Of a stretch of 64,000 bases of DNA, positions 8,735-53,768 are shown piece by piece. Source of the stretch: Chryseobacterium sediminis. GTDB taxonomy: Bacteria; Bacteroidota; Bacteroidia; Flavobacteriales; Weeksellaceae. Numbering within the stretch: position 1 is the stretch's first letter; every line of letters begins with the position of its first letter. Both the position numbers and the translations under genes were made by a program. The stretch spans positions 186,001 to 250,000 of the forward strand of contig NZ_VUNZ01000003.1 in NCBI RefSeq assembly GCF_008386505.1. The letters run 5' to 3'. Below the pieces are notes generated by a model, which searched no databases, was not told the origin of the DNA, and was given only the letters and a program-made list of their open reading frames with translations.

Positions 8735-9763
8735 TTAAACCAACACTCCGTTTTTAGAAGAAATAGGATCCGGAAGGTCTGTTTCTCCGCTCATCTGAAG
8801 AAGGTCAATTTCAATCGTTCTGCAGATAGAAAGCATAGGGACGTCAAACATTAATCCTGCAAAAGGGTTTTCGGAATAATCTCCTACCAGTTCCATAATA
8901 ATGTAGATCCATCCGATAATGATACAGAACGGAATAGAAGTCCAGATTCCCCAATCACCAAGCTTTGCAAATTCATTTACCAATCCAAGTGGAAGAAGCA
9001 TAATGAAAAGAATATTGAAAACGAAGGCTGTACTGGCAAACTGTCTTGGAGAAGGGAATTTTTTGATTCTTTCGGCCTGTCCCTGAAAATTATAGAATTC
9101 ATTCAGAGCGTTCTGAAGTTGAGTTTGATTGAATTCTGTAATTGCCCCCATATTTTTAAGCTCATTGATGTCTTTTGCCTGTTGAGAGACTAGGTAAGTG
9201 GCAAAGTTTTTATAATCATTTTTAAGCTCATATTCTTCTTCGGAAAGATATTTGTGTAGGAAAATAGGGGCTCTCCCGTAATCAGGAAACCCGGCTTTAA
9301 TCAGTCTGTTTCTTCTCAGGTTGATATTCCCGAATTTCTTTTCTGTACTGATATGTTCCCATTCCGTAGGAACCAAAAGTTGTTCACGGAAAGTGTATAA
9401 CCATGCAATATGACGATAAACGATTCTTTTTTTACGGTCTTCGAGATCAAAAACGCCAATTTCTTCATTTTTAGTATCAAAAGCGTAAACCATAGAAGCA
9501 AATGAACGGCTTGAATTCACAATGCCGCCCCAGATTTTTCTGGCTTCCCAAAGTCTGTCATAAGCCTGGTTGTTTTTGAAACCCACAAGGAATGCTTCTG
9601 CTGTACCAATCAGGGCAACAGGAACCCAGGGAATCGTCATCCAGTGCCAGTTGAAGAAATAAAAGAAAACAGCAATTAATGTACACCAGATTGATATAAA
9701 AATAAGGTGTACACCGGCCAGATTGAGAACCTGTTTATAATTGACGTATTTGGTTGTGATCAT
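8735..9763 (-). CDS. Bestrophin family (UPF0187) anion-channel-like membrane protein
   Basis: The 342-residue protein has an N-terminal hydrophobic pair (about 15-35 and 45-60) followed by the family signature FLVGFKNNQAYDRLWEARK-WGG near residues 59-80. A second membrane pair lies near 240-290. The conserved acidic C-terminal part includes GDYSENPF. Bacterial homologues are pentameric channels; some conduct sodium rather than chloride, so the ion is not certain here. It is followed by the 8573 hairpin and preceded by a 205-base gap. Confidence 0.9.
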   Translation of the reverse strand: MITTKYVNYKQVLNLAGVHLIFISIWCTLIAVFFYFFNWHWMTIPWVPVALIGTAEAFLVGFKNNQAYDRLWEARKIWGGIVNSSRSFASMVYAFDTKNEEIGVFDLEDRKKRIVYRHIAWLYTFREQLLVPTEWEHISTEKKFGNINLRRNRLIKAGFPDYGRAPIFLHKYLSEEEYELKNDYKNFATYLVSQQAKDINELKNMGAITEFNQTQLQNALNEFYNFQGQAERIKKFPSPRQFASTAFVFNILFIMLLPLGLVNEFAKLGDWGIWTSIPFCIIIGWIYIIMELVGDYSENPFAGLMFDVPMLSICRTIEIDLLQMSGETDLPDPISSKNGVLV

Positions 9764-9926
9764 AAAGATAGATGTGTTTTGCGTGTAGAGACAAAATAAA
9801 TACCAAACTGTGATGTTTTTGTTTTGTAATGCCTGTCAGGTAATAGATAATCGGGTTTTCTTGGTTTATAATAACTTGGGATTGAGGTTGATAATCTTAA
9901 TAAAAGTAGTGAAAAAATTGCATAAA

Positions 9927-9954
9927 AAAACCTCTAAAAATTTTTAGAGGTTTT
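9927..9954 (-). terminator. Terminator of the E1 dehydrogenase gene
   Basis: A 28-base perfect palindrome, AAAACCTCTAAAAA and its complement, lies 15 bases past the stop codon with T-rich sequence beyond it on the minus strand. Confidence 0.85.
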
Positions 9955-9968
9955 AATTTTATATAAAC

Positions 9969-12041
9969 TTAATATTTCAGCATTTCTTCGATCTTATTGC
10001 TGAGCTTTTCAGCATTCGGAAGCATTTCTTTTTCCAATATCAGATTGATTGGTACGGCAGGTACATCCAATGAACCTATCGTTTCTACCGGTGCATCAAG
10101 ATATTTGAAGCAGTTTTTAGAAATACGGTGGGCAAAAGCTTCTGCAAAAGAGTTGTTAAGCTGTTCTTCGGTAAGAACGATGCATTTTCCGTGGGCTTTT
10201 ACTCTTTCAAAAACAAGTTCTTCATCAAGAGGAATTAAAGTTCTTAAATCAATCACTTCAACTCTTCCGTTGAAATTTTTGGCTGCTTCTTTAGCCCAGT
10301 AAACTCCCATTCCGTAAGTAACGACTAATAAAGTTCCGCCTTTTTCTGTTTCGTTTTTATCAGCCTCGATAATTACTTTACCTTTTCCGAACGGAAGAAC
10401 ATAATCTTCAGCAGGTTCTATTGTTTTGGCATCCTCAGTTCCCGGAACTTTACTCCAGTATAACCCTTTATGTTCCAGCATTACTACCGGGTTTGGATCG
10501 TAATAGGCAGCTTTTAATAAGCCTTTAAAATCAGCTGCATTACTTGGATATGCTATTTTGATTCCTTTAATATTGGCTAAAATACTTTCAACGCTTCCGC
10601 TGTGGTAAGGACCGCCACCGCCATATGCTCCGATTGGAACACGGATAATGTTGCTTACAGGGAATTTCCCGCCACTTAAATAGCTCGATTTTGAAATCTC
10701 TGTAATCAACTGGTTGATTCCCGGATAAATATAGTCTGCAAACTGAACTTCAACAATTGGTTTTAAGCCCACAGCACTCATTCCGGCTGTAGATCCAATG
10801 ATATAAGCTTCCTGAATGGCTGTATTGAAGACTCTTTTGCTTCCGAATTTTTTTCCTAAAGTAACTGTTTCACGAAAAACTCCGCCAATTCTTTCTCCTA
10901 CATCCTGTCCGTAAAGAAGAGCTTCAGGGTGTTTCCACATCAATTCCTGAATAGCATGGATAGCAGCATCTACCATCACAATTTTTTCTCCGTTGGCTGG
11001 TTCACGTGTTCCAGCCTCCTCAGTAATAGGAGTAGGAGCAAAAACGTGCTGCATTACAGTTTCAGGTTTGGGGTCTTCTGCATTTTTAGCTTTTTCAAAA
11101 GCTTCTTCTGCTTCAAGACGTGCCTTTTTAGTGATTTGCTTTAAAAGATCTTCGTCTACGCCTGTTTCCAGTAAATATTTTCTAAGGATTTCTCCCGGAT
11201 CTTTCGCTCTGTGTTTCGTTAAATCTTCTTCGTCTCTATAGAATTCTCTTCTTACTCCTGAAGTATGGTGCCCAATTAAAACAGTTTTTGCACAAACGAC
11301 TAAAGGTTTTCTTTCCGTTCTTACAAAATCTACGGCTTTCTTCATCGCTTCAAAACTTTCTACGAAATCTGTTCCGTCTACTCTCATTCTGCTTAACCCT
11401 GTGAATCCTGCAACAAAATCATAGGCATCACACGTTCTCGCTTCGTCTTTCGTTACGGAAATTCCCCATTCATTATCCTGTACAAGGAAGATGATAGGAA
11501 GCTGATGTAAAGCGGCAAACTGTAAAGCCTCACTCACTTCACCTTCTGTAACGGAATTGTCTCCAAGACTGCAGACAACAACAGGATTGTTTTCAAACTC
11601 CTGCAGATTGAAGTCCTGAATGTATTTGATTCCCTGAGCTACTCCTGTAGTAGGGATGGTTTGCATACCGGTTGCAGAACTCTGGTGAACAATCTTAGGT
11701 TTGTTTTCATCTCTGCTAGAAGGGTGGGAGTAATAAGATCTTCCTCCGGAAAAAGGATCATCAGCTTTAGCCAGCAATTGAAGCATTAACTGATAAGGTT
11801 CAAAACCAATTCCTAAAAGAATACTTTCGTCTCTGTAATAAGGAGAAACCCAGTCTTCTTTCTTCAGCTGATAAGCTGTCGCAAGCTGAATGGCTTCGTG
11901 ACCTCTTGAAGTACTGTGAACGTATTTACATACGTTTCTGTTTTCTTCATAAATATCAGCCATTGCTTTGGCCAGCATCATATGATTATACGCTTTGAGT
12001 AATATATCCTGAGAAACTTTTTCGTGAAGTGCATTTTCCAT
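9969..12041 (-). CDS. Fused E1 alpha-beta subunit of a 2-oxoacid dehydrogenase complex
   Basis: The protein has 690 residues from ATG 12041 (MENALHEK); the TTG three codons upstream is rejected. Residues ~10-330 are the E1 alpha part, with the thiamine diphosphate motif GDNSVTEGE...DNEWGIS (about 165-195) and the phosphorylation-loop-like RREFYRDEED. Residues ~355-690 are E1 beta (VMVDAAIHAIQELM, then GQDVGERIGGVF and VEVQFADYIYPGINQL). E1 decarboxylates a 2-oxoacid and passes the acyl group to the lipoyl domain of E2. The single-chain form is known in Bacteroidota. A branched-chain substrate is plausible but unproven. No E2 or E3 gene is adjacent. Confidence 0.88.
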   Translation of the reverse strand: MENALHEKVSQDILLKAYNHMMLAKAMADIYEENRNVCKYVHSTSRGHEAIQLATAYQLKKEDWVSPYYRDESILLGIGFEPYQLMLQLLAKADDPFSGGRSYYSHPSSRDENKPKIVHQSSATGMQTIPTTGVAQGIKYIQDFNLQEFENNPVVVCSLGDNSVTEGEVSEALQFAALHQLPIIFLVQDNEWGISVTKDEARTCDAYDFVAGFTGLSRMRVDGTDFVESFEAMKKAVDFVRTERKPLVVCAKTVLIGHHTSGVRREFYRDEEDLTKHRAKDPGEILRKYLLETGVDEDLLKQITKKARLEAEEAFEKAKNAEDPKPETVMQHVFAPTPITEEAGTREPANGEKIVMVDAAIHAIQELMWKHPEALLYGQDVGERIGGVFRETVTLGKKFGSKRVFNTAIQEAYIIGSTAGMSAVGLKPIVEVQFADYIYPGINQLITEISKSSYLSGGKFPVSNIIRVPIGAYGGGGPYHSGSVESILANIKGIKIAYPSNAADFKGLLKAAYYDPNPVVMLEHKGLYWSKVPGTEDAKTIEPAEDYVLPFGKGKVIIEADKNETEKGGTLLVVTYGMGVYWAKEAAKNFNGRVEVIDLRTLIPLDEELVFERVKAHGKCIVLTEEQLNNSFAEAFAHRISKNCFKYLDAPVETIGSLDVPAVPINLILEKEMLPNAEKLSNKIEEMLKY

Positions 12042-40270: not shown

Positions 40271-40789
40271 ATGAATAAAAATGATGTCTATAATCTGGGA
40301 GGAAAAATATGCCTTTTCTTCTCCATCTTGTTAGTATTTTCATGCAATCATGAAGACAACACTTTTCCAAGTTCTAAAAAACAAAATGAAACAGTTCAAC
40401 CTTCACCATACAATCATTTTATTACCTCAAGTGTAGATCACCTGTATGAGTTTTGTCCGGCAGGAGATATGGTTTGTTATAATGATATGAGCTTAACCAT
40501 AAAAACAGTTGACTTCTTTAAGTCTTTAGGTCCCAAGAATTCCTTATTGGGAAGCTATAATAATATTTTTTACGCTGCAAGAGGATATCTTATAGATCAT
40601 AATTTTTCTGATGATGCTAAATTATTTCTTACAGATAAACTCAATTTTTTAGCAGAGTGTAGTAAAACAAAGGATAACTCAACTCCTGAAAAACAATTAG
40701 AAAATCTTGAATTTATACACTGGTCGCTAGAGTATTTTATTAAAAATCCTGATACAACAAATGAACAGTTTAAAAACTTGTATATGTGA
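40271..40789 (+). CDS. Putative lipoprotein, unknown function
   Basis: The 172-residue protein has a leader with a good lipobox (FFSILLVFSC, Cys at ~25), followed by a polar Ser/Asn/Glu-rich linker (~26-50). The rest is mixed helix with no recognisable motif and ends in helical sequence LEFIHWSLEYFIKNPDTTN. It stands alone with long AT-rich gaps on both sides. The protein should be anchored by lipid in the periplasm or outer membrane. I cannot assign a family. Confidence 0.65.
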   Translation: MNKNDVYNLGGKICLFFSILLVFSCNHEDNTFPSSKKQNETVQPSPYNHFITSSVDHLYEFCPAGDMVCYNDMSLTIKTVDFFKSLGPKNSLLGSYNNIFYAARGYLIDHNFSDDAKLFLTDKLNFLAECSKTKDNSTPEKQLENLEFIHWSLEYFIKNPDTTNEQFKNLYM

Positions 40790-41029: not shown

Positions 41030-41860
41030 ATGGGAAATAGCAAATATCCGAAGTTTACCTTCACATGGATTGGCGGTGTTGCTTTGGTGGTTGGATTATT
41101 CGTGGGAACAATGGCTGTTTCTTTATTCAGCACTTTTTGGAAAGTTGTTTTCAAAGAAAATCTTGAGCTTAAAGACTGGTTCCTTATGGTTGCTAATTCT
41201 GTAGGATTCCTTACTGCTATTGCCTTTTTTGATTTTTTCATTGTAAGACGGACTACCCAAAAGAAGCTTAACTTCAATTTATCATCCGTTAATTTCTCTA
41301 CCTATCTTCTTATTTTTCCAATGATGGCGGGGATGATGTTTATTTCAGAATTTATAGCCGCTCAGATCCCTACTACAGGACCTTTTTTTGGTGATTTTTA
41401 TGAATATTTTACACAATTGATGAGCCAGCTGACCGATAATCCTGTTGTAATGATTATCATGACGGTAATTATGGCTCCTATTTTTGAAGAAATTATATTC
41501 AGAGGAATTATCCAGAAAGGATTGATTAATAAAGGAGTAGAGCCATGGAAAGCCATTTTGTACGCTTCCATTATTTTTGGAGTGGTTCACGGAAATCCAT
41601 GGCAGTTTATCAGCGCAGTGATGCTGGGCTGTGTGCTGGGATTGGTATATCATAAAACAAAATCTTTACTGATGCCGATATTGCTGCATGCGTTTAATAA
41701 TTTAACGCTTTCATTATTGGTACTTTATGGTAAAGATGAAAGTTTTGCAAAAGTTCTTAATATTTCAGAATGGCTTGTACTGGCCGTAGGAATTGTACTT
41801 TTCTCTTTATTCTACTATCTTTTTATGAAAAAGTATAAAGTGCATTATGCTGAAATGTAA
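41030..41860 (+). CDS. CPBP (Abi/CAAX) family intramembrane glutamic endopeptidase
   Basis: The 276-residue protein has seven to eight hydrophobic segments. The active-site motifs are EEIIFRG in PIFEEIIFRGIIQ (~150) and FGVVHGNPWQF (~183), followed by a third conserved region (MPILLHAFNN, ~220). Members are membrane proteases related to the eukaryotic CAAX prenyl endopeptidase Rce1; in bacteria they are linked to bacteriocin immunity and stress responses. The substrate is unknown. rdgB follows at 28-40 bases on the same strand, so they probably share the promoter at 40971. Confidence 0.9.
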   Translation: MGNSKYPKFTFTWIGGVALVVGLFVGTMAVSLFSTFWKVVFKENLELKDWFLMVANSVGFLTAIAFFDFFIVRRTTQKKLNFNLSSVNFSTYLLIFPMMAGMMFISEFIAAQIPTTGPFFGDFYEYFTQLMSQLTDNPVVMIIMTVIMAPIFEEIIFRGIIQKGLINKGVEPWKAILYASIIFGVVHGNPWQFISAVMLGCVLGLVYHKTKSLLMPILLHAFNNLTLSLLVLYGKDESFAKVLNISEWLVLAVGIVLFSLFYYLFMKKYKVHYAEM

Positions 41861-41900
41861 TTAACAAGCTAAAAAAGTAAAATTGAAAATGAATATAGAA

Positions 41901-42476
41901 ATGGAATTATTAGTAGCTACACACAACGAACATAAAAAAGAAGAAATCCAGCAGATCCTGGGAAGTGACTGCGTTGTGAAAAGTCTTACCGATTATAATA
42001 TTCACGAAGAAATTGTGGAAGATGGAGATTCTTTTCATGCCAATGCCCTAATTAAGGCAAAATACTGTTTTGAGAAAACAGGTGTTCCAAGTTTAGGAGA
42101 TGACAGCGGTCTGGTAGTGGAATCTTTAGATGGAAGACCTGGTATTTTCTCTGCCCGCTATGCCGGAGATCACGATTTTGCGAAAAATATTGAAAAGGTG
42201 TTGGAAGAAATGCAGGGAATCGAAAACAGGAAAGCTTATTTTGTTACCGTTCTATGCTACTATGATGAAAAAGGGGCACAATATTTTGAAGGCCGAGTAC
42301 ATGGAAATTTACTGACAGAAAATAAAGGCTTTAAAGGATTCGGATATGATCCTATTTTTGTTCCGACTGGGCATGACAGAACCTTTGCAGAGATGGATCC
42401 GGAAGATAAAAACAAAATCAGCCACCGTAAGCAGGCCCTAGATTTATTTATGGATTTTTTAAAAGTGACTGATTAA
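41901..42476 (+). CDS. rdgB: RdgB/HAM1 family non-canonical purine NTP pyrophosphatase
   Basis: From ATG 41901 (MELLVATHNEHKKEEI) the protein has 191 residues, as usual; another ATG four codons upstream (41889) is possible. Diagnostic motifs are the N-terminal LLVATHNEHK nucleotide loop, SLGDDSGLVVESLDGRPGIFSARYAG (~60-85) and FGYDPIFVPTGHDRTFAEM (~145-163). The enzyme removes ITP, dITP and XTP from the nucleotide pool, protecting DNA. Next gene: RNase Z on the same strand after 68 bases. Confidence 0.94.
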   Translation: MELLVATHNEHKKEEIQQILGSDCVVKSLTDYNIHEEIVEDGDSFHANALIKAKYCFEKTGVPSLGDDSGLVVESLDGRPGIFSARYAGDHDFAKNIEKVLEEMQGIENRKAYFVTVLCYYDEKGAQYFEGRVHGNLLTENKGFKGFGYDPIFVPTGHDRTFAEMDPEDKNKISHRKQALDLFMDFLKVTD

Positions 42477-42544: not shown

Positions 42545-43459
42545 TTGAGTACTTATTTAACAATATTAGGCTTCAATTCAGCGATTCCAACCATCAATAC
42601 ATCACCCACAGCTCAGCTGTTGGAAATGGAAGAAAGACTTTTCCTGATTGATTGTGGAGAAGGTACACAGGTACAGCTGAGAAAAGCAAAAGCAAGATTT
42701 TCAAAGATCAATCATATTTTTATCTCCCATCTTCATGGGGATCACTGTTTCGGGCTTCCGGGGCTTATTGCCTCTTTCCGTCTTTTAGGAAGAGATACTC
42801 CGTTGCATGTTTACGGCCCGAAAGGTATTAAGAAGATGCTGGAGACCATTTTCCAGATTACGGAAACACACCGTGGTTTTGAAGTAGTATATCATGAACT
42901 GGATAAGGACTATTCAGAAAAAATATATGAGGACAATAGAGTAGAAGTGTATACCATTCCGTTGGATCACAGAATTTACTGTAACGGTTACCTTTTTAAG
43001 GAAAAGCCCAAAGACAGGCATCTCAATATGAAAGAAATTGCCAAGTACAGTGAGATTGAAACCTGTGACTACCATAATATAAAAGCAGGAAAAGACTTTG
43101 TATTGAGTGATGGTTATGTTCTCAAAAATGAAATTCTGACTCTTGAACCTGCTCCGCCGGTATCCTACGCATTTTGCAGCGATACCCGTTATCTGGAAAG
43201 TGTGATTCCGATTATTAAAAATGTTACCGTTCTTTATCACGAATCCACATTTTTACATGATCTGAAGGAAATGGCTGATTATACAGGGCATACTACAGCA
43301 TTGGAGGCGGCAACGATTGCTCAGAAAGCTCAGGTTGAAAAACTGATTTTAGGGCATTTTTCCAACAGATATGGAGACCTGACTGTATTTACCGATGAAG
43401 CCAGAGAAATTTTCCCTAATACATTTTTACCAAAAGCATTGGAAAGTGTAAAGATTTAG
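42545..43459 (+). CDS. rnz: Ribonuclease Z
   Basis: The 304-residue protein has the metallo-beta-lactamase zinc motif SHLHGDHCFGLPGL (~59-72), the AFCSDTRY (~205) aspartate strand and the C-terminal GHFSNRY histidine motif (~272). It processes the 3' ends of tRNA precursors. The start is TTG 42545 (MSTYLTILGFNSAIPT); the family begins exactly here and no ATG precedes it. It leads a tight run with the TIGR02757-like gene one base after its stop. Confidence 0.95.
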   Translation: MSTYLTILGFNSAIPTINTSPTAQLLEMEERLFLIDCGEGTQVQLRKAKARFSKINHIFISHLHGDHCFGLPGLIASFRLLGRDTPLHVYGPKGIKKMLETIFQITETHRGFEVVYHELDKDYSEKIYEDNRVEVYTIPLDHRIYCNGYLFKEKPKDRHLNMKEIAKYSEIETCDYHNIKAGKDFVLSDGYVLKNEILTLEPAPPVSYAFCSDTRYLESVIPIIKNVTVLYHESTFLHDLKEMADYTGHTTALEAATIAQKAQVEKLILGHFSNRYGDLTVFTDEAREIFPNTFLPKALESVKI

Positions 43460-43460
43460 A

Positions 43461-44237
43461 ATGAATATGCTGAAATTTGAAGAACTCAGAGATTTTCTCA
43501 ACGAAAAGGCAGATCAGTACAATGCTCCCGATTTTATAGAAAATGATCCTATACAGATTCCTCATCGTTTTTCTTTAAAACAGGACATTGAAATTGCAGG
43601 ATTTCTGGCGGCTACAATTTCCTGGGGAAACAGAAAGTCAATCATCAGTTCTGCGGATAAAATGCTTGATATTATGGGAAATTCTCCCTATGATTTTGTG
43701 ATGAATTATTCAGAAAAGGATTTGAAAGATATTCAGGATAAAAGCATTCACAGAACTTTTAATGGGCAGGATTTTTCCTATTTCATTAAACAGTTCAACA
43801 GGATTTATAAACAAAATGAAAGCCTGGAAAGTCTGTTTGAAGTAAAAGAACCTGAGAATAATTTTCTCCACGCCATAGAACGATTCAGGAATGGGTTTCT
43901 GGAAACAGAAAAACACAGAAGCCACAAACATATCAGCTCTCCTTATAAAAACTCTTCTGCTAAAAGGATTATTATGTTTTTAAGATGGATGGTGCGTAAA
44001 GATAAAAGAGGAGTAGATTTTGGAATTTGGGAAAATATAGATCAGAAAAACCTTTCCATTCCTTTAGATGTGCATACCGGAAATATCTCCAGAAAACTGG
44101 GACTGGTTTCCAGAACACAAAACGACTGGAAAACAGTAGAAGAACTGGATGCTACCATTAGAAAATTTGATGAAACAGATCCTGCAAAATATGATTTTGC
44201 CTTGTTTGGATTAGGGGTTACCAAAGAACTGTTGTAA
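43461..44237 (+). CDS. TIGR02757-like conserved protein, possible DNA-glycosylase-fold helical protein
   Basis: The 258-residue protein begins one base after the rnz stop. Recognisable stretches are ISWGNRKSIISSADKMLDIMG (~50-70), RIIMFLRWMVRKDKRGVDFGIW (~168-190) and the end LDVHTGNISRKLGLVSRTQNDWKTV (~200-225). That LDVH/HTG segment with helix-rich surroundings resembles the HhH-type helical fold of base-excision glycosylases, which is why such a role is sometimes inferred. The family is found in Bacteroidota and spirochaetes, and its function is not established. Confidence 0.78.
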   Translation: MNMLKFEELRDFLNEKADQYNAPDFIENDPIQIPHRFSLKQDIEIAGFLAATISWGNRKSIISSADKMLDIMGNSPYDFVMNYSEKDLKDIQDKSIHRTFNGQDFSYFIKQFNRIYKQNESLESLFEVKEPENNFLHAIERFRNGFLETEKHRSHKHISSPYKNSSAKRIIMFLRWMVRKDKRGVDFGIWENIDQKNLSIPLDVHTGNISRKLGLVSRTQNDWKTVEELDATIRKFDETDPAKYDFALFGLGVTKELL

Positions 44238-44248
44238 AAATATAAAGG

Positions 44249-44803
44249 ATGAAAAAATATAACGAAAAAACAGAAGTCCTTGAAAAAATAGCGGATAGTA
44301 TTACATCATGGATAGGATCTATTCAGTCTTTGATAGTACATACTCTGCTGTTTCTTACTTCGTTTCTGCTTCCGATGCTGCATATTGTAGATTTTGATAA
44401 GATGCTTCTGATTCTTACTACAGTGCTTTCTCTGGAAGCTATTTATCTGGCTATTTTTATCCAGATGTCTGTGAATAAAAGTCACGAAAAAATTGAAGAT
44501 ATCCAGGAGGATATTGAAGAGATCAGTGAAGATATTGAAGACATTCAGGAAGATATTGAAGAAATCAGTGAGGATATTGAAGAGATCAGCGAAGATATCG
44601 AAGAGATCAATGAAGATATCGAAGATATCCAGGAAGATATTGAAGAGATCAATGAAGAAGAGGAAGAAGAAGATCACAATGAAAGAGCAAAAAATGTAAT
44701 ATTGAGGAGTAATGTCAACTCCAATAAAAACGAAATAAAGGCGTTAAAAGATATTATCTCTCAGCTGCAAAATGAAATTGAGCAATTGAAAAAAGAAGAA
44801 TAA
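44249..44803 (+). CDS. DUF1003-like membrane protein with acidic Ile/Glu heptad repeat
   Basis: The 184-residue protein starts 11 bases after the previous stop. Residues ~10-72 resemble DUF1003: helix SLIVHTLLFLTSFLLPML, then FDKMLLILTTVLSLEAIYLAIFIQM. Residues 82-137 are eight tandem heptads of type IE(D/E)I(S/Q/N)ED, i.e. Ile at a and d positions of a coiled coil, with most other positions Asp or Glu. A second coiled coil closes the protein (EIKALKDIISQLQNEIEQL). The repeat is a 21-bp tandem array at DNA level (44492-44659). The long acidic stalk should sit in the cytoplasm. Function unknown. Confidence 0.82.
   Translation: MKKYNEKTEVLEKIADSITSWIGSIQSLIVHTLLFLTSFLLPMLHIVDFDKMLLILTTVLSLEAIYLAIFIQMSVNKSHEKIEDIQEDIEEISEDIEDIQEDIEEISEDIEEISEDIEEINEDIEDIQEDIEEINEEEEEEDHNERAKNVILRSNVNSNKNEIKALKDIISQLQNEIEQLKKEE
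44492..44659 (+). repeat. Eight 21-bp tandem repeats coding the heptads
   Basis: Units have the pattern ATT GAA GAn ATC nnn GAA GAT and start at 44492, repeating every 21 bases without gaps. Units 1, 3 and 7 encode Gln at position five, the others Ser or Asn. Third-base differences show the array is old but still in phase. Confidence 0.92.
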
Positions 44804-44832: not shown

Positions 44833-44863
44833 AAACAGATCAATCAACTGATCTGTTTTTTTT
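44833..44863 (+). terminator. Terminator of the rnz operon
   Basis: AAACAGATCA and TGATCTGTTT pair around a short loop and are followed by more T, 29 bases past the stop. Confidence 0.88.
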
Positions 44864-45008: not shown

Positions 45009-47369
45009 ATGTTAATCTATAGACTAAAAAACTATTTTTTCCTTTTTTCTTTTTTATTGATTTCTGTTTCTGCATTTTCTCAAACGAGACCAGTCAGAAA
45101 ATCAGAAAAGATAAAGCCTTCTGCTGCCAGTCTTAGGGCTGGAGCATTCATAGATGTGAACGTACCTCCTTATACCCCTTCAAACTACACTCCCGAGCAA
45201 TTGGTGAAGAATATTTTGATCAATGGTGGTACCAATTGTACAACAGCCAATGTTACCAATGTAACAGTATCTCCTAATCATGAAGTGACTAACAGCAACA
45301 GATTTTGGGGATATTTTCATAAAGGAACAACAAGTTTTCCTTTCACTGATGGTATTGTCCTGACTACAGGATACGCTTCGGAAGCAGGTAATAACTATGT
45401 ATCAGCTGTTGGACAATCAGTAGGAACAGGAAGTGATGCTGATCTTGTGGCGGCTACCGGAGCCAACGTCAGCTTAACGGACGCTGTAGCACTTGAATTT
45501 GATTTTGTACCTAATTCCAATCAGGTAAAATTTAATTATATATTCGTTTCTGATGAATATACTTCCAACTATCCTTGTACCGGATATTCTGATGCCTTTG
45601 CATTATTGTTAAAGAAAGTTGGAGATCCTACTTATACTAATCTAGCTGTGCTTCCTGGAGGAGCCGGACCTGTAAGTGCAACCAATATTGTTCCTGCAGG
45701 AAACGGATTCAGTTGTGGTCCTATTAATGCAACTTATTTCGGAGCTTTGGCGAATCCGCATCTGGTTATTAATTATTTTGGGAGAACAACTCCTTTAACA
45801 GCTGTAGCAGATGTAATTCCGGGACAGACTTATCACTTTAAAATGGTATTGGCAGATGCAAAAGACCCTTCCCATGACTCAGCTGTTTTCTTGGAAGGTG
45901 GATCTTTTGATGTCGGAATTAAAATTGTAGATGAAGCAGGAGCGGTTTTACCAGGCAGCATCAATATGTGTGACAATACACCAAAGCAATTAAAAGCACA
46001 GGTAGCAGCCATTCCGGGAATGACTTATCAATGGTATAAAGACGGAGTTGCCATTCCGGGAGCAACCAGCGCTATTTATATTGCTACAGCGCCAGGAGTA
46101 TATACTGTAAAAGTAATGGTTCCGGGCAATCAGTGTCCTGGTGAAGCTACTATTACAATTGTCGGAGGAACGAGTCCTACGGTACAGAATGCTGTGCTTA
46201 AACTTTGTACAACGCCTGCACTCAGTACCTTTAATTTAGAAACAGCACAACCTTTGATCAGTACAACGCAGGGAGCGGTATTCCGTTTTTATGCTAATCA
46301 GGCTGATGCACAGGCACAAAATAATAGTAATATCACCAATCTGACCACTTACAACGGAACAGATGGACAGATATTATATGTATTGGTTTCCAATGGAGCT
46401 TTCTGTAGTAAAATTGCAACTTTAACTTTAAGAAAAGAAGAAACTCCAACAGCATTACTTACAGCTCCCCGATTAAAAATCTGCGCCGGTGAATCTGTAT
46501 TATTAACAGCTTCAGGTGGAGTAACATATCAATGGAGTGACTCAGCAGCTACCACTGGCGGAATAAGAACTGTAAGCCCTACCCAAACTACTACATATAC
46601 GGTATATGCTATCGGAGCGCAGGGATGTAAATCTCTTCAGCCCGCACGTATTACAATAGAAGTAGTACCGGCTATTGTTTCAAACTTAAAAGGAGGCCAT
46701 ATCTGTCAGGGAGATAAAATTATTCTTGATGCAGGTTCAGGACCTGGATATACCTATCAGTGGAGTAATGGAGAAACAGGTCAGAGTATTACTGTTTCAA
46801 CTCCGGGAGAATATACAGTAATGATAAGCAATGGGGTATGTTCAAAAGAATTTAAGACACAGGTTATTAAAGCTGTGATTCCTCAGGTGATAAAAGTGGA
46901 TTATAATGAAAATGGAACAATGATTCTTACAGCAAGCAATCCAAGTAACGGTATCCTGGAATATTCAGTTGATAACGGAGTTACCTGGCAGTCTTCAAAT
47001 GTATTTACTAATGTTCCTAAAAATAAAATTATTTCAATCAGAGTTAGGGTTAAATTTACAAGCTGTGTAGGATTCCTTGAATTCTTTACATTCGTTATGA
47101 AAAATGTGATCACTCCAAATGGTGACAACCTTAATGATACTATTGATTTCAGTGGAGTCATTAATTATAAAAATTTCAGCGGACAGGTTTTTGACCGATA
47201 CGGAAGAGAAGTCTTCAAAGCTGAAAAGGTAAGGCCGTATTGGGATGGATATTTCCAGGGTAAAAAACTGCCTACTTCCACATACTGGTATCAGGTAACC
47301 TTTGAAGATCCTGCGAGTAAAGAACTTACGGTGAAAACAGGGTGGATATTACTTAAAAATATAGAATAA
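45009..47369 (+). CDS. Choice-of-anchor L protein with type-B (gliding-motility) T9SS C-terminus, copy 1
   Basis: The 786-residue protein has a leader ending SVSAFSQ (~27), then the motif PSAASLRAGAFIDVN shared by all three copies. The choice-of-anchor L domain covers ~55-300 (LTTGYASEAGNN, VKFNYIFVSDEYTSNYPC, NLAVLPGGAGPVS, DSAVFLEGGSFDVG). Ig-like modules follow (YQWYKDGVAIPGATS; GESVLLTASGGVTYQW; GDKIILDAGSGPGYTYQW). Residues ~695-786 are the type-B sorting region: NVITPNGDNLNDTIDF to TGWILLKN. Type-B substrates usually depend on a SprF-like partner, none of which is in the window. Confidence 0.88.
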   Translation: MLIYRLKNYFFLFSFLLISVSAFSQTRPVRKSEKIKPSAASLRAGAFIDVNVPPYTPSNYTPEQLVKNILINGGTNCTTANVTNVTVSPNHEVTNSNRFWGYFHKGTTSFPFTDGIVLTTGYASEAGNNYVSAVGQSVGTGSDADLVAATGANVSLTDAVALEFDFVPNSNQVKFNYIFVSDEYTSNYPCTGYSDAFALLLKKVGDPTYTNLAVLPGGAGPVSATNIVPAGNGFSCGPINATYFGALANPHLVINYFGRTTPLTAVADVIPGQTYHFKMVLADAKDPSHDSAVFLEGGSFDVGIKIVDEAGAVLPGSINMCDNTPKQLKAQVAAIPGMTYQWYKDGVAIPGATSAIYIATAPGVYTVKVMVPGNQCPGEATITIVGGTSPTVQNAVLKLCTTPALSTFNLETAQPLISTTQGAVFRFYANQADAQAQNNSNITNLTTYNGTDGQILYVLVSNGAFCSKIATLTLRKEETPTALLTAPRLKICAGESVLLTASGGVTYQWSDSAATTGGIRTVSPTQTTTYTVYAIGAQGCKSLQPARITIEVVPAIVSNLKGGHICQGDKIILDAGSGPGYTYQWSNGETGQSITVSTPGEYTVMISNGVCSKEFKTQVIKAVIPQVIKVDYNENGTMILTASNPSNGILEYSVDNGVTWQSSNVFTNVPKNKIISIRVRVKFTSCVGFLEFFTFVMKNVITPNGDNLNDTIDFSGVINYKNFSGQVFDRYGREVFKAEKVRPYWDGYFQGKKLPTSTYWYQVTFEDPASKELTVKTGWILLKNIE

Positions 47370-47537: not shown

Positions 47538-50500
47538 ATGTTAAATAGGAGGAGAGGAAATTTATTTTTAGCGTTATTTTTAGTTTTCCTAGGGAACTTT
47601 ATTTTGGCTCAAAATAGAGGAAGGGTAGAAATTGCGAGAAAACCCAGTGCTGCTTCTTTGAGAGCAGGTGCTTTTATAGATGTGAATGCACCAAGTTATC
47701 CGGAATCAGGCTATCCTATAACCCAGCTGATCAATGATGTTCTTATATCAGGAGGTACTACCTGTACTAACTCAAGTGTAAGTAATGTAACGGTGTCTCC
47801 AAACTTACCCGCTACCAATCAGAACCGAAGCTGGGGATACTTTAATAAATCAAATACCAATTTTCCGTTTAATAAAGGAATTATACTTTCTACAGGATAT
47901 GCCAATAAAGCAGGGAATACTCTTCAGGGAACTTTAAGTGATGATCTTGGAACCGGAGGAGATGTAGATCTGGCAAATGCATTAGGAATTGCCAACTCTA
48001 ACCTTACTAATGCTACCTCTATAGAGTTTGACTTTGTAGCTGCTTCTACTGAAATTACTTTCAGATATTTATTTGCTTCAAAAGAATATCAGCAAAACTT
48101 TCCATGTACCATTACAGATGGTTTCGCCCTATTATTAAAAAAAGCTTCTGATCCTAATTATACCAACCTTGCAGTGCTTCCGGGAGGAGCAGGAGCTGTG
48201 AGTGTTACCAATATTCACCCGCAATATCAAAACTGTGGGCCTAAAAATGAAGCCTATTACGGAGGTACCAACACCGCACAGATCGAAACCAATTTCAACG
48301 GACGTACCATTCCTCTTACAGCAAAAGCAACTGTAATCCCGGGAGAAACATATCATTTTAAAATTGTTCTTGCTGACTACCAGGATCCCAACTTTGATTC
48401 TGCCGTATTTTTAGAAGCAGGATCTTTCGATATTGGAGTGAAAATTCTGGATCCGGCCGGAGTACAGCTGCCTGGATCTGTAAATATGTGTGATAATACA
48501 CCACAAACTTTTACAGCTTCTGTTCAGGGACCTAATATAACTTATCAGTGGTATTTGGGAACCAATCCAATTGCCGGAGCTACCAATGCAAGTTATACGG
48601 CGACAGCACCAGGGGTTTATACTGTTAAGGTTTTTATCCAAGGGAATACCTGTCCGGGAGAGGCTACGATTACAGTAGTAGGAGGGACATCTCCTACAGT
48701 ACAGAATGCTACGTTAACGGCCTGTTATGCTGCCGGAAATGCTACATTTAATTTAACATCAGCACAGGCTTCAATAAGCACCACTCCGGGAGCTGTGTTT
48801 TCATATTATACTACTTTGGCAGACGCTAATGCAGGAAATGCGAATACAATTCCAGTTCCCACTGCTTATCAGAGTGCAGGAGGAACTGTATATGTAAGAG
48901 TAGCAAATGGCTTTTGTGCTAAAGTAGCGCAGCTTCAATTGGTGAAAGCACCGCAAATGATACCTACCATTGCTCCTCCGATAGTATTAACCTGTGCCAA
49001 TTCTCAGACTACGCTGGATGCATCGGCTTCCGTTTATCCGGCAGGTGCTACATTCAACTGGACAACTACAGGAGGAAATATTGTTTCGGGAGGAACTACC
49101 TTAAATCCCGTTATCAATGCTGCGGGAACCTATACTTTAACCATCACAAAAATATATCAGCCCGGAAATGTTACCTGTACAGCAGTGGGCAATGTGACTG
49201 TAACGGGAAACAGTGCGCCACCGGTTACGGGACTTACGGCAAGCAAAATAAAAATCTGTAAAGGAGAATCTGCAACACTTACCGCATCAGGAGGCGCTAC
49301 CTATAACTGGGGGAACGGCCTTACCGGAAACGGAAGTACACAGGTTGTTTCTCCTACTGTTACAACTACTTATACTGTAACGGCAGTAGGTGCGAATGGT
49401 TGTGTGTCTCAAAACCCTGCCACTATAACAATTGAAGTATCAGAACCATTTACAGCACAGAACGCAACACTACATAAATGTTATCAACCGGGATTAACTT
49501 ATAACCTTACAGAAGCACAGCCTCAGATCACTACTGCTGCAGGAGTTACTTTTACTTATTATGTAAATCAGGCTGATGCCAACGCTGCTAACGGAAACTT
49601 TATTGTAACCCCTACAGCATATACACCACCGGGAGGAAGTCAGACTATTTATGTATTGGTAAGTAACGGAGGTTGTAGTTATGTAGTATCTCTGCAATTA
49701 TTAAGCACAGCTCAAACTACCCTTACCATTGCAGCACCACAAATAATTACCTGTACAACTCCTCAGATTACAATTAATGCTTCAACATCAGTTGTACCTG
49801 CAGGATCTACTATTACATGGACTACAACCGGAGGAACTATCGTATCCGGAGGGAATACACTTACCCCTGTTGTAAGCGCTGGCGGAACGTATACTTTAAC
49901 GGTTACTAACGTGTCACAACCAGGAAACTTGAGCTGTACCTTTACTTCAACAGTAACTGTACAGGAAGATAAAGTAAAACCAATAGCTGCTGTAGTTTCA
50001 TCACAGCCACGTATTTGTATTGGAGAATCTGTAACATTGACAGCTTCAGGTGGGGTAACCTATAACTGGGGTAATGGTATTACAGGAAACGGAAGTACTC
50101 AGGTTGTTTCGCCTACTACAACTACGGTATATACTGTTTTTGCTGTTGGGGCTAACGGATGTATTTCTGCAACGCCGGCATCAGTCACTGTTCAGGTAGG
50201 TCCACCTATAGCAGGGCTTACAGCATCCAAATTAAAAATTTGTGAAGGTGAATCTGTGACGTTGACAGCTACAGGAGGAATTACTTATAACTGGATAGGA
50301 CTTACCGGAAATGGAAATACACAGGTCGTTACTCCTACCACAACAACAGAATATTCGGTATTTGCATTGGGAGGAAACGGATGTAGCTCTGTGAATCCGG
50401 CTAAGGTTACTATCGAAGTAGTTCCGGCCATTGTTTCTACATTGAAGGATGTATTTGTTTGTGCCGGAGATAAAGGAACTCTTGATGCAGGTCCTGGACC

Positions 50501-51122
50501 AAATTATACTTACTTATGGAATACGGGCGCAACTACTCAGACGATAACTACCAATGTTGCCGGAGCTTATTCTGTAACCATCAGTAATGGAGTTTGTTCT
50601 AAAACATTCTCTGCTCAGCTGATAAATCCTGATCTGCCACAATTTACCAATGTTGTGTATGATAATCATATTCTTACCCTTACTGCAAGTAATCCGACAG
50701 GAGGTACTTTAGAGTATTCAATAGACGGAGGATTGACATGGCAGTCGTCAAACATATTTACCGGTATCCTGAACAATACAATGTATTCTCTGATGGTGAG
50801 AGTAAAAGGTGCTAAATGTGGTACTTCACTGGATTATTTCACTTTTGTTATCAGCAATGCCATTACTCCTAATATGGACGGGGTAAATGATACTATAGAT
50901 TTCACAGGAATTAGCGGATACAAAGATTTTGCGGCTTCCATCTTTGACAGATACGGAGCAGAGGTATTCAAAGCTGCGAAAGGTGATGTTATTTGGACAG
51001 GATCTTTAAAAGGAATTAACCTTCCTACAGGGACCTATTGGTATCGAGTACAGTGGGAAAACCCGGCCAGTAAGAAAATGGAACAACGCTCAGGCTGGAT
51101 CCTCTTAAAAAATAGAAACTAG
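47538..51122 (+). CDS. Choice-of-anchor L protein with type-B T9SS C-terminus, copy 2 (expanded)
   Basis: With 1194 residues it is about 400 longer than its two paralogues. The order is leader (FLGNFILAQ), PSAASLRAGAFIDVN, choice-of-anchor L (~50-305), one Ig-like module, then a block duplicated inside the gene: roughly residues 388-638 (from QNATLTACYAAG) and 639-889 (from QNATLHKCYQPG), each a jelly-like unit, a PKD-like unit (TTTGGNIVSGGTTL against TTTGGTIVSGGNTL) and a GESATLTASGG-type Ig unit. A third such Ig unit (GESVTLTATGG) follows. The end (NAITPNMDGVNDTIDF to SGWILLKNRN) is type B. Confidence 0.87.
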   Translation: MLNRRRGNLFLALFLVFLGNFILAQNRGRVEIARKPSAASLRAGAFIDVNAPSYPESGYPITQLINDVLISGGTTCTNSSVSNVTVSPNLPATNQNRSWGYFNKSNTNFPFNKGIILSTGYANKAGNTLQGTLSDDLGTGGDVDLANALGIANSNLTNATSIEFDFVAASTEITFRYLFASKEYQQNFPCTITDGFALLLKKASDPNYTNLAVLPGGAGAVSVTNIHPQYQNCGPKNEAYYGGTNTAQIETNFNGRTIPLTAKATVIPGETYHFKIVLADYQDPNFDSAVFLEAGSFDIGVKILDPAGVQLPGSVNMCDNTPQTFTASVQGPNITYQWYLGTNPIAGATNASYTATAPGVYTVKVFIQGNTCPGEATITVVGGTSPTVQNATLTACYAAGNATFNLTSAQASISTTPGAVFSYYTTLADANAGNANTIPVPTAYQSAGGTVYVRVANGFCAKVAQLQLVKAPQMIPTIAPPIVLTCANSQTTLDASASVYPAGATFNWTTTGGNIVSGGTTLNPVINAAGTYTLTITKIYQPGNVTCTAVGNVTVTGNSAPPVTGLTASKIKICKGESATLTASGGATYNWGNGLTGNGSTQVVSPTVTTTYTVTAVGANGCVSQNPATITIEVSEPFTAQNATLHKCYQPGLTYNLTEAQPQITTAAGVTFTYYVNQADANAANGNFIVTPTAYTPPGGSQTIYVLVSNGGCSYVVSLQLLSTAQTTLTIAAPQIITCTTPQITINASTSVVPAGSTITWTTTGGTIVSGGNTLTPVVSAGGTYTLTVTNVSQPGNLSCTFTSTVTVQEDKVKPIAAVVSSQPRICIGESVTLTASGGVTYNWGNGITGNGSTQVVSPTTTTVYTVFAVGANGCISATPASVTVQVGPPIAGLTASKLKICEGESVTLTATGGITYNWIGLTGNGNTQVVTPTTTTEYSVFALGGNGCSSVNPAKVTIEVVPAIVSTLKDVFVCAGDKGTLDAGPGPNYTYLWNTGATTQTITTNVAGAYSVTISNGVCSKTFSAQLINPDLPQFTNVVYDNHILTLTASNPTGGTLEYSIDGGLTWQSSNIFTGILNNTMYSLMVRVKGAKCGTSLDYFTFVISNAITPNMDGVNDTIDFTGISGYKDFAASIFDRYGAEVFKAAKGDVIWTGSLKGINLPTGTYWYRVQWENPASKKMEQRSGWILLKNRN

Positions 51123-51410: not shown

Positions 51411-53768
51411 ATGAGAAGATATCTACCGCTTTGTTTATTTTTTTTAGTCATCTCGACTTTTTTATTTTCACAAGATCTGCCACCCAGGAAACATGTAAAG
51501 GAAATTCCTACAGCAGCCTCCAGAAGAGCAGGTGTTTTTATTGACGTGAATGCTCCGCAGTATCCTGAAACCGCTTACACTATTGAAAAAATGGTTAAAG
51601 ATGTATTGATCTCATCCGGGACCAATACCTGTCTTACTCCCAATGTAACCAATGTGAAGATTACTCCTAATCATGCTGCAAGTGATGCAGACAGAGCATG
51701 GGGATATTTTCATAAGGCAACAACCAATTTCCCTTTTAAAGACGGGCTTGTTCTTTCTACAGGATATGCAAGAAGAGCAGGTAATACCTTTGAAGGTGGC
51801 CTTAGTGATGTGAATGGAGGAGGATCAGATGCTGATCTTGCACAGGTGATTGGCGTAGTGGAAAGCAGATTGAATGATGCTGTTCTTTTGGAATTTGACT
51901 TCGTTCCTACAACCAGCCAGATTAAATTTAACTACTTGATTGCATCCGAAGAATACACAGGTTCTTTCCCTTGTACTTTTGCAGATGCTTTTGCAATCTT
52001 ATTGAGACCTACTTCAGGAGGACCTTATGTAAATATGGCTGTACTTCCGGGAGGAGCAGGACCGGTAAGTATCACGAATATTCACCCTGCAGTACCAGGC
52101 AGCTGTGGTGCAGTAAACGAACAATATTTTGCCGGATATAACACCGGTAACGTAGAAACCAACTTTAATGGAAGAACAATTCCATTGACAGCTACAGCAA
52201 CCGTAGTAGCAGGACAGCAATACCACTTCAAAATGGTAATTGCCGATTATAGTGACCACAGTTATGACTCTGCAGTATTTCTGGAAGGAGGATCTTTCAA
52301 CATTGGAGTAGACCTTTTAGACCCTGCAGGAACAAAATTACCTTCCGATATAAACGTTTGTGATAATGTACCTCAGGTAATCACCGCTTCCGTAAATGAT
52401 CCTAACCTTGTATATCAGTGGTATTATAATGGTGCGCCGGTACCTAATGCTACTACCAATACAATTACAGCTATACAGCCAGGTACTTATACTATCGAAG
52501 TAAGTGTTCCAGGGAATCCGTGTCCGGGTAAAGCTACTATTCAGATTCACGGAGGAACAACTCCACTAGCTCAGGATGCTACATTATTACTGTGTACCAC
52601 ACCGGATATTACTACTTTTGATTTAAGTACAATTACATCTACTATAAGCCCTACACCGGGAGCTATTTTTAAGTTTTACGTAAATCAGGCTGATGCAATT
52701 GCACAGAACAGCAATTATATTCAGACTCCATTAAACTATAACGGTAACGATGGTCAGATTCTTTATGTTGTAGTTTCCAATGGCGGTTTCTGTAGTAAAA
52801 TGGTTGAATTGACATTGCACAAAGAAGTAACCCCAACGGCTAAAGTAAAAGCTTCCAGAATAAAAATCTGTCCGGGAGAATCTGTAACCCTTACTGCGGA
52901 AGGAGGAGATACTTACCAATGGAGCAACTTTATGGGAACAGGAAATATGCAGACTGTTACTTTATATCAAACGACAACATTTACAGTCTATGCAATTGGA
53001 ACAAAAGGTTGTAAATCTCTTAATCCGGCAACAATAAGAATTGAAGTTACTCCGGAAATCACCTCACCATTAAAAGATGTTGAAATGTGCGTTGGTGATA
53101 AAGTGACTCTTGATGCAGGTGCAGGAGATGGCTTTAAATACCTTTGGAGTACAGGCGCTACAACACAGAAAATTGATGTAGACCAATGGGGTATCTATTC
53201 CGTAGAAATTGATAACGGAATTTGTAAGAAAGTTTTTGAAGCTAAAGTAATGGGAGCAGCTACTCCTTTTGTGACTGCATTAAGCTATGAAAGCATCAAG
53301 AAAACAGTAACGATCACAGCTGAAAACCCTCCGATGAACAATATGCCAAGTACTTTGGAATATTCTATTGACAACGGAATCAGCTGGCAGGATTCTAACG
53401 TGTTTACCGGTCTTTTAGACAATACAAATTATACAGTTTTGGTAAGAAGAGTAGGTACACACTGCGTAGGATCTCTTGAATTCTTTACATTGCAGATTAA
53501 TAATATTATTACTCCAAACGAAGACGGAATTAATGATGTACTGGATCTTAAAGCTCTTGGAGACTTTAAAAACTTTACAGGTTCTGTGTATGACAGATAT
53601 GGAGTAGAAATGTTCAGATTCTCAAAAGAAAATCCTACCTGGAACGGAACAGTTGGAGGGAAGAGACTTCCTACAGCAACATACTGGTATAAGTTCAATT
53701 TTGAGTATCCAAAATCAAAAGCTCAGATGAACTGGTCAGGATGGATCATGCTGAAAAACAGAAACTAG
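51411..53768 (+). CDS. Choice-of-anchor L protein with type-B T9SS C-terminus, copy 3
   Basis: The 785-residue protein has the same plan as copy 1: leader (MRRYLPLCLFFLVISTFLFS), PTAASRRAGVFIDVNAPQYP, choice-of-anchor L (~50-300, with LLEFDFVPTTSQIKFNYLIASEEYTGSFPC and NMAVLPGGAGPVSITNIHP), Ig-like modules (YQWYYNGAPVPNATT; GESVTLTAEGGDTYQW; GDKVTLDAGAGDGFKYLW) and a type-B end (NIITPNEDGINDVLDL to SGWIMLKNRN). Function is unknown; a matrix, adhesion or motility filament role is plausible. The end matches copy 2 better than copy 1 (KNRN against KNIE). Confidence 0.88.
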   Translation: MRRYLPLCLFFLVISTFLFSQDLPPRKHVKEIPTAASRRAGVFIDVNAPQYPETAYTIEKMVKDVLISSGTNTCLTPNVTNVKITPNHAASDADRAWGYFHKATTNFPFKDGLVLSTGYARRAGNTFEGGLSDVNGGGSDADLAQVIGVVESRLNDAVLLEFDFVPTTSQIKFNYLIASEEYTGSFPCTFADAFAILLRPTSGGPYVNMAVLPGGAGPVSITNIHPAVPGSCGAVNEQYFAGYNTGNVETNFNGRTIPLTATATVVAGQQYHFKMVIADYSDHSYDSAVFLEGGSFNIGVDLLDPAGTKLPSDINVCDNVPQVITASVNDPNLVYQWYYNGAPVPNATTNTITAIQPGTYTIEVSVPGNPCPGKATIQIHGGTTPLAQDATLLLCTTPDITTFDLSTITSTISPTPGAIFKFYVNQADAIAQNSNYIQTPLNYNGNDGQILYVVVSNGGFCSKMVELTLHKEVTPTAKVKASRIKICPGESVTLTAEGGDTYQWSNFMGTGNMQTVTLYQTTTFTVYAIGTKGCKSLNPATIRIEVTPEITSPLKDVEMCVGDKVTLDAGAGDGFKYLWSTGATTQKIDVDQWGIYSVEIDNGICKKVFEAKVMGAATPFVTALSYESIKKTVTITAENPPMNNMPSTLEYSIDNGISWQDSNVFTGLLDNTNYTVLVRRVGTHCVGSLEFFTLQINNIITPNEDGINDVLDLKALGDFKNFTGSVYDRYGVEMFRFSKENPTWNGTVGGKRLPTATYWYKFNFEYPKSKAQMNWSGWIMLKNRN

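Follow-up and report, generated by a model that had tools for sequence, protein, structure and literature searches.

A DUF1003-related membrane protein of Chryseobacterium with an acidic heptad array in phase with a conserved transmembrane helix: a possible charge-regulated rod

A gene at 44249–44803 (forward strand) of the 64,000-nucleotide stretch of Chryseobacterium sediminis DNA analyzed here (the window, to which all coordinates refer unless a locus is named) encodes a 184-residue, predicted two-pass membrane protein in which a nearly unvarying second transmembrane helix (TM2) is followed, in constant heptad phase, by eight acidic heptads. Judged by sequence comparison, this design is present in Chryseobacterium, other Bacteroidota, small-genome Patescibacteria and some phage contigs. 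We tentatively propose that the protein forms an oligomeric cytoplasmic rod whose packing would be set by charge neutralization and which would be coupled to the conserved membrane core. The rod structure is moderately supported by the observations described below, and its function is something that we infer from them.

The open reading frame, its length and its eight heptads are exactly as stated in the original prediction, and this ORF is the single match in its own genome both to the whole protein (at E 0.001) and to the DUF1003 profile. In the AlphaFold2 model, an N-terminal helix (residues 3–21; 44255–44311) lies ahead of TM1 (residues 25–43; 44321–44377), which contains His31 according to the alignments, and TM2 (residues 49–76; 44393–44476), also supported by comparison of 174 distinct proteins, leads to the array recognized by TRF and by heptad reading (residues 82–137; 44492–44659). 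A break in the modeled helix marks an acidic linker (residues 138–144; 44660–44680), beyond which a mixed-charge C-terminal helix is predicted (residues 145–182; 44681–44794); all of these lie on the forward strand. The eight units read IEDIQED, IEEISED, IEDIQED, IEEISED, IEEISED, IEEINED, IEDIQED and IEEINEE. Ile occupies positions a and d in all eight, giving an unbroken hydrophobic stripe, as for a parallel homo-oligomeric coiled coil. The 56 residues include 32 Asp or Glu and no Lys, Arg or His, and the acidic run extends five residues past the last heptad. Among the 53 open frames in the window that reach 90 residues or more, the most acidic 56-residue stretch has a net charge of −35 in this ORF versus −16 in the runner-up. 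This composition, together with the predicted helix, agrees with the acidic coiled-coil-like stalk first suggested for the protein; its first assignment as a membrane protein is supported as well. The heptads were also called perfect, which is true of Ile at a and d and untrue of the remainder, the final unit ending in EE.

At the DNA level, TRF places the array at 44492–44658 (period 21, 8.0 copies, 82% matches), with three rows there scoring 195–248 and a sole other row in the 64 kb scoring 52. The 21-bp repeats are imperfect, because mean pairwise identity among the eight units is 0.816 for DNA and 0.781 for protein. A 123-residue antisense open frame crosses the array (44306–44677, reverse strand) and is most likely a mere by-product of the Glu, Asp and Ile codons.

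By sequence, the heptad protein is related to DUF1003 (PF06210) but has diverged from it. The whole protein scores 27.5 bits against a gathering threshold of 27.4, residues 1–80 without the array score 24.2 bits, and the score in the genome search is 32.4 bits; hhalign aligns the two-TM core with DUF1003 over 88 columns at a probability of 98.8% (E 5.8e-17), so that the kinship originally suggested holds up, although the Pfam score is borderline. Common to both are two TMs, a TM2 of the SLEAI(F/Y)L type ending in S.N(R/K), and G(S/T) ahead of TM1. The differences show against nine chosen canonical DUF1003 proteins: SQNR follows TM2 in all nine, whereas the heptad protein has SVNK; a DPYPF-like segment precedes TM2 in eight of the nine, whereas the heptad protein has VDFDKML; and the C-terminal part is non-repetitive in all of them, in contrast to the acidic heptad array of the window protein. 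In the family tree, the DUF1003 outgroup splits from the heptad family at 100/100 on a long branch.

Two streptococcal DUF1003 proteins, both biochemically uncharacterized (PMC9163064, PMC4839699), have been described. SMU_1307c of S. mutans, which has two TMs, acquired mutations, nonsense included, during long culture (PMC9163064), and SAN_2180 of group B Streptococcus is controlled by CiaR, aids survival within host cells and is said, at second hand, to resemble an L. lactis acid/multistress tolerance protein (PMC4839699). The TMs of SMU_1307c lie at residues 112–136 and 148–171, a layout unlike that of the heptad protein (PMC9163064), and an acidic heptad array is absent from the descriptions of the two proteins in the accessible parts of these sources (PMC9163064, PMC4839699). 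Because of this other layout, and with no array described, the streptococcal data point only to stress and to the envelope. A literature search on acidic heptads, pH-dependent coils and the host groups returned nothing about the heptad protein among the matches listed.

Long heptad helices are shared with the MCP signaling coiled coil and the Lpp zipper, and the best PDB sequence match is an MCP (E 5.3e-6, residues 82–140). Scores nevertheless fall below the gathering thresholds for the MCP signaling domain (PF00015; 22 versus 34.6 bits), the Lpp leucine zipper (PF04728; 21.8 versus 29.1) and DUF948 (PF06103; 28.6 versus 37.2), and at the sequence level we regard the MCP and Lpp likeness as coiled-coil resemblance only. 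Fifteen PHROGs families match the window protein solely via stretches that include the array, and residues 1–80 by themselves match none. MscL-type channels combine a short N-terminal helix, two TMs and a C-terminal coiled bundle, a layout that the heptad protein may resemble.

The AlphaFold2 model of the window protein (mean pLDDT 73.6, pTM 0.33) has helices at residues 3–21, 25–43, 49–137 and 145–182, with TM2 and the array drawn as one 89-residue helix. The pLDDT is 80–90 over most of the TMs but 62 at the TM2–array junction (residues 71–80) and 59–84 in blocks of the array, so that the continuity of this helix is predicted with medium confidence. A member from a virus contig (mean pLDDT 70.2, array blocks 45–54) is modeled with helices at residues 2–12, 15–33, 38–114 and 125–158, the third again uniting TM2 and array, and in both members a C-terminal helix is predicted to follow the linker. 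Comparison of the predicted structure with the PDB found no solved fold matching it, and the best BFVD match had an E value of 6.4.

TM2 is strongly conserved. Across the 174 distinct proteins compared (99 Weeksellaceae-type, 25 Chitinophagaceae-type, 35 Patescibacteria and 15 virus-contig), the segment SLEAIYL(A/S)IFIQMSVN (residues 61–76) is nearly unvarying; Ser61 to Tyr66, Ile71, Gln72 and Asn76 do not vary, and every face of the helix carries invariant or near-invariant residues, Glu63 and Gln72 included. The presence of SLEAIY in 174/174 is partly owed to row selection, because the scans sought pieces of the motif and the filter passed only rows with a relaxed version; a profile search free of motif patterns supplied 31 of the 35 Patescibacteria rows. 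The set omits DUF1003 rows (L066–L068, L159–L171, L208–L220), L238 and L239, duplicates, 20 later-fetched genus genes, and L206, whose motif, ALEVIYL, was missed by the row filter. In TM1, His31 is invariant in alignments of 40 and 25 rows. The array begins in phase with TM2: residue 82 is hydrophobic in 171/174 proteins, the three exceptions being virus-contig rows, and residue 89 in 174/174. Extended into TM2, the a/d phase falls on Thr57, Ser61, Ala64, Ala/Ser68, Ile71 and Val75, residues that are small or little-varying, as would be expected if the coiled coil ran on without a break into TM2 and had small residues in its core.

A heptad carries a net charge of −3.9, −3.4, −3.3 and −3.1 in the Weeksellaceae-type, Chitinophagaceae-type, Patescibacteria and virus-contig groups, respectively, and Lys and Arg make up 0.3%, 1.7% and 4.2% of array residues in the first three. 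In-phase units number 5–9, 4–14, 2–9 and 0–6 in the same order; the low count of 0–3 in some members of the last two groups speaks against a charge-regulated rod. The positive-inside rule is an established guide to membrane topology. Again in the same order, the first 20 residues contain on average 3.9, 4.5, 5.1 and 2.9 Lys plus Arg, compared with 1.0, 0.9, 0.7 and 0.5 for the nine-residue loop, and mean N-terminal Asp and Glu counts are 3.8, 3.0, 2.6 and 1.5. This distribution leans toward both ends being cytoplasmic, most clearly for Patescibacteria and weakly for the group to which the window protein belongs, where the N-terminus has as many acidic as basic residues (3.8 versus 3.9), which counts against the assignment.

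The membrane domain is present in all 173 sampled Chryseobacterium genomes. The array was read in 65 of these (45 plus 20 that were hand-picked to include odd lengths), of which 64 have it intact with 6–9 units. The remaining one (L246, in G164) goes out of frame from the array start while heptad-like residues continue in another frame, reflecting either a sequencing error or a real break. By eye, the protein of C. rhizoplanae (L140) differs from the window protein at one residue. A sample of the family gave matches in 82/148 genomes and 13/33 genera, with 20 of the 82 from Chryseobacterium, and a sample of the phylum in 11/296 genomes: seven of the same family, a clear relative in another family (L065) and three DUF1003 proteins without the array. 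Within the family of L065, 21/195 genomes match, ten strongly (E 1.1e-33 or better) and eleven weakly and by score alone (1.2e-10 to 4.5e-4).

Farther afield, a scan of 84,980 species yielded 462 relatives, the best 80 of which include Niabella, Taibaiella and Flavipsychrobacter as well as four Paceibacterota/Nomurabacteria MAGs of ~0.5–0.6 Mb. The Patescibacteria family to which one of these MAGs belongs matches in 54/79 genomes, 48 at E 2.7e-18 or better and six more weakly and by score alone (8.4e-5 to 4.2e-12), and acidic heptads occur in 20/20 of the proteins read. Across a wider sample of that phylum, there are matches in 32/286 genomes, of which 17 reach E 9.6e-19 or better while 15 are weak; the weak matches read (L208–L220) have no acidic array and are mostly like ordinary DUF1003, and a strong match, L206, also has no array. 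IMG/VR contributed 19 virus-classed contigs, two of them (L238, L239) without the array, and single membrane-domain queries of named phages and of plasmids found no match at E 1e-3.

In the window, the heptad gene follows genes for a CPBP (Rce1-like) intramembrane protease identified by Pfam (41030–41860), an RdgB/Ham1 non-canonical NTP pyrophosphatase (41883–42476), ribonuclease Z (rnz; 42545–43459) and a DUF2400/TIGR02757 protein (43461–44237), all on the forward strand. The heptad gene starts 11 bp beyond the DUF2400 gene, and 3′ of it lies a terminator-like hairpin followed by or carrying a T-run (44833–44858, forward strand); both features agree with its original placement as the last gene of a putative rnz operon. 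Within flanks of up to 4 kb, 53 of 56 Weeksellaceae-type loci have the RNase Z cluster, 53 the DUF2400 cluster, 51 Ham1 and 48 CPBP; the rnz cluster occurs at none of 24 loci outside Weeksellaceae. Elsewhere in the window, a 172-residue open frame with a lipoprotein-like start (40271–40789, forward strand) has no Pfam match at E 0.1, and large open frames follow in succession downstream (45009–47369, 47538–51122 and 51411–53768). The first two of these have a common N-terminal segment (SAASLRAGAFIDVN), and the first has Ig_7 and CHU_C type IX secretion domains.

At the 35 Patescibacteria loci, raw neighbor counts, taken without a background rate, are 12 for a YchF-type GTPase, eight for Sua5/TsaC, six for LeuRS and five for MiaA; most flanks were 1.5 kb and each cluster was named by Pfam from one example. 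Loci with such translation-gene neighbors include L074, L075, L076 and L081. On three virus contigs (L221, L233, L234), the heptad gene follows, on the same strand, members of tail-sheath and tail-tube-like clusters, whose names come from the L233 and L234 proteins and, for the tube, from a weak match (E 7.7e-6). Among ten large proteins in six stretches of the other virus contigs, and three further neighbors, no phage structural gene was found. Matches to phrog_2, which we take to be a terminase, occur in 4/13 virus records and decide nothing on virus status, because they also occur in 11/14 control genomes. One such match, in the L231 record (G1143, 9187–10962), has eight TGA and three TAG codons inside, which may be recoded stops in a virus or a broken gene. 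Virus-classed sequence also encodes a PPK2–HAD fusion and a ligand-gated-ion-channel-like protein (L243:3172–4773 and L241:15452–16579, both reverse strand). Neighbor clusters at Chitinophagaceae-type loci are mostly confined to close relatives, and we rejected them as a guide to function; an ABC-exporter-like cluster, named by eye and of a very common gene kind, is found at five Chitinophagaceae-type loci, one Patescibacteria locus and one virus locus.

The protein repeat has been kept by selection after most of the DNA repeat decayed, because the Glu and Asp positions are held and codon sharing is close to that of a shuffle. Over 726 units in 99 rows, b is Glu in 690 and Asp in 20, f is Glu in 705 and Asp in 18, and g is Glu in 50 and Asp in 676, whereas c is mixed (Glu 430, Asp 286). 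A swap between Glu and Asp at b, f or g needs one third-base change, yet the residues are kept, and third bases at these positions vary within purines or within pyrimidines. Codon sharing among units of the same protein is 0.619 versus 0.583 after synonymous shuffling and is higher than shuffled in 66/97 genes; with units so near random synonymous codon choice, recent DNA amplification of the array is not supported. Serine is encoded by AGY in 96% and glutamine by CAG in 97% of cases within the array, compared with 33% and 76% outside it, a bias that points to an old origin by duplication.

Substitution rates point the same way at most heptad positions. Of 101 Weeksellaceae-type genes, 26 have the e-position series Q.S.Q.S.S.N.Q.N and 25 have Q.Q.S.S.N.Q.N, with 17 other series in the remainder. 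In groups of 26, 25 and 13 species matched for unit order, pN is 0.0060, 0.0052 and 0.0036 in the array versus 0.0563, 0.0487 and 0.0150 in the preceding 75 residues, although these groups are defined by their e-position residues and thereby hide change at e. Grouping instead by unit number (42 species with seven units, 45 with eight) compares differing unit orders and raises pN at c and e: pN is 0.042 and 0.056 for the whole array, 0.019 and 0.024 without e, and 0.055 and 0.090 at c, whereas the TMs have 0.065 and 0.050 and the tail has 0.094 and 0.059, so that with e included the array is not below the TMs in the eight-unit group (0.056 versus 0.050). Ratios of pN to pS for the array are exaggerated, because Glu and Asp codons offer few synonymous sites (pS exceeds 1 at some positions). 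Genus-wide conservation and constraint at most heptad positions led us to reject chance low complexity or a translation artefact.

The original prediction held that slippage of the 21-bp units might make stalk length vary between cells. Array length does change by whole heptads between species, so that unit number is not identical across distant species, and in two pairs of related species the arrays are a single 21-bp unit apart, with an identity of 0.905 once that unit is removed. However, unit order is kept across species, the units have decayed at synonymous sites to the codon sharing given above, and unit number is clustered on the species tree, needing ~10 changes in 53 species versus a shuffled mean of 18.2, a value as low in 1/200 shuffles (the tree, from RNase Z and DUF2400, is partly resolved). 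The comparison between species thus gives no sign of hypervariability, and we consider a stalk whose unit number shifts within a population very improbable. The weakly resolved family tree, built on 80 columns from 104 rows that include one in three of the Weeksellaceae rows, needs 13 group changes where the least possible is 4, and virus-contig rows adjoin both Patescibacteria and Chitinophagaceae rows, so exchange between phyla, in either direction, is likely on these sequences.

Three further readings must be set against the charge-regulated rod. If charge density itself were the function, the acidic rod could serve as bait tethering a basic cytoplasmic partner, such as ribosomes or RNA-handling proteins. 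RNase Z precedes the gene in Chryseobacterium and translation genes adjoin it in Patescibacteria, as this would predict; yet the rnz cluster is absent from the 24 loci outside Weeksellaceae, housekeeping genes are common neighbors generally, and a plain rod of charge would not need Glu and Asp to be held apart at b, f and g. We therefore consider such a tether unlikely. The same distinction between Glu and Asp, and the scarcity of Lys and Arg, exceed what a passive spacer would need, that is, a rigid arm that sets the distance of the C-terminal helix and is kept soluble and unbundled by its charge. The 4 to 14 whole heptads found in Bacteroidota with the starting phase kept, and the C-terminal helix predicted after the linker, would suit such an arm, which we nonetheless rate as rather unlikely.

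It is also conceivable that the protein is an oligomeric two-TM channel, holin-like or mechanosensitive-like, in which TM2 lines or braces a pore and the acidic rod draws cations to its cytoplasmic mouth. Conserved residues on all faces of TM2, His31 in TM1, the predicted helix–TM–TM–coil layout and the virus-contig members, three beside tail genes, would be in keeping with a pore, whereas the small residues at a and d of TM2 point to close packing and no PDB fold matches. Because the gene is found throughout the genus (173/173), a lysis holin in particular is unlikely, and for channels of either kind we hold the prospect to be more doubtful than that of the spacer.

Returning to the charge-regulated rod, we envisage a protein that crosses the inner membrane twice and has both of its ends on the cytoplasmic side, in which TM2 and the heptad array would form one helix and neighboring copies would pair side by side via the a/d stripe to give a parallel rod standing on the membrane. 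Its length would be ~8 nm in the window protein (56 residues at a rise of 1.5 Å, calculated by hand), and array-bearing family members would range from 2 to 14 heptads. Ile at both a and d, which reportedly favors trimers in GCN4 mutants, would favor three-stranded packing. The exterior of the rod would be almost purely acidic: four charges per 10.4 Å correspond, again by hand calculation, to −0.38 e/Å for one strand, −0.77 for a dimer and −1.15 for a trimer, and B-DNA has −0.59 e/Å, so that charge per length would be like that of DNA or above. Counter-ion condensation at such charge density is established theory, and it may control assembly of the rod. Because its exterior is so nearly purely acidic, tight assembly should need its charge to be neutralized, whether through Mg2+ or polyamines, a low pH or binding to a basic partner. 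As the rod keeps a fixed phase with TM2, a change between packed and loosened states would pass to the highly conserved membrane core, where His31, Glu63 and Gln72 lie. The heptad protein would then act as a cation- or acid-responsive device of the envelope. The stress link of the DUF1003 relative SAN_2180 may count in favor of this proposal by analogy, such relatives not being described with an array in the accessible source (PMC4839699). That the family as a whole is a cross-phylum device carried by tailed phages, in which a polyanionic rod of tunable length and DNA-like charge density folds and unfolds to read cytoplasmic cations or pH and signals through the phase-locked helix to the nearly invariant TM core, is a bolder claim that we regard as doubtful.

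The heptad protein is more widespread than the original prediction could tell from sequence alone, and its presence in all sampled genomes of the genus, in many small Patescibacteria genomes and on virus contigs suggests a family under constraint. The array also provides a natural, highly uniform acidic heptad that is usable in coiled-coil design. If the charge-regulated rod proves true, a cell would read its own ionic state by means of a coiled coil, and rod length may set the threshold. Because the membrane helix is near-invariant and the polyanion module joined to it is simple and countable, this question of ionic sensing becomes a testable one.
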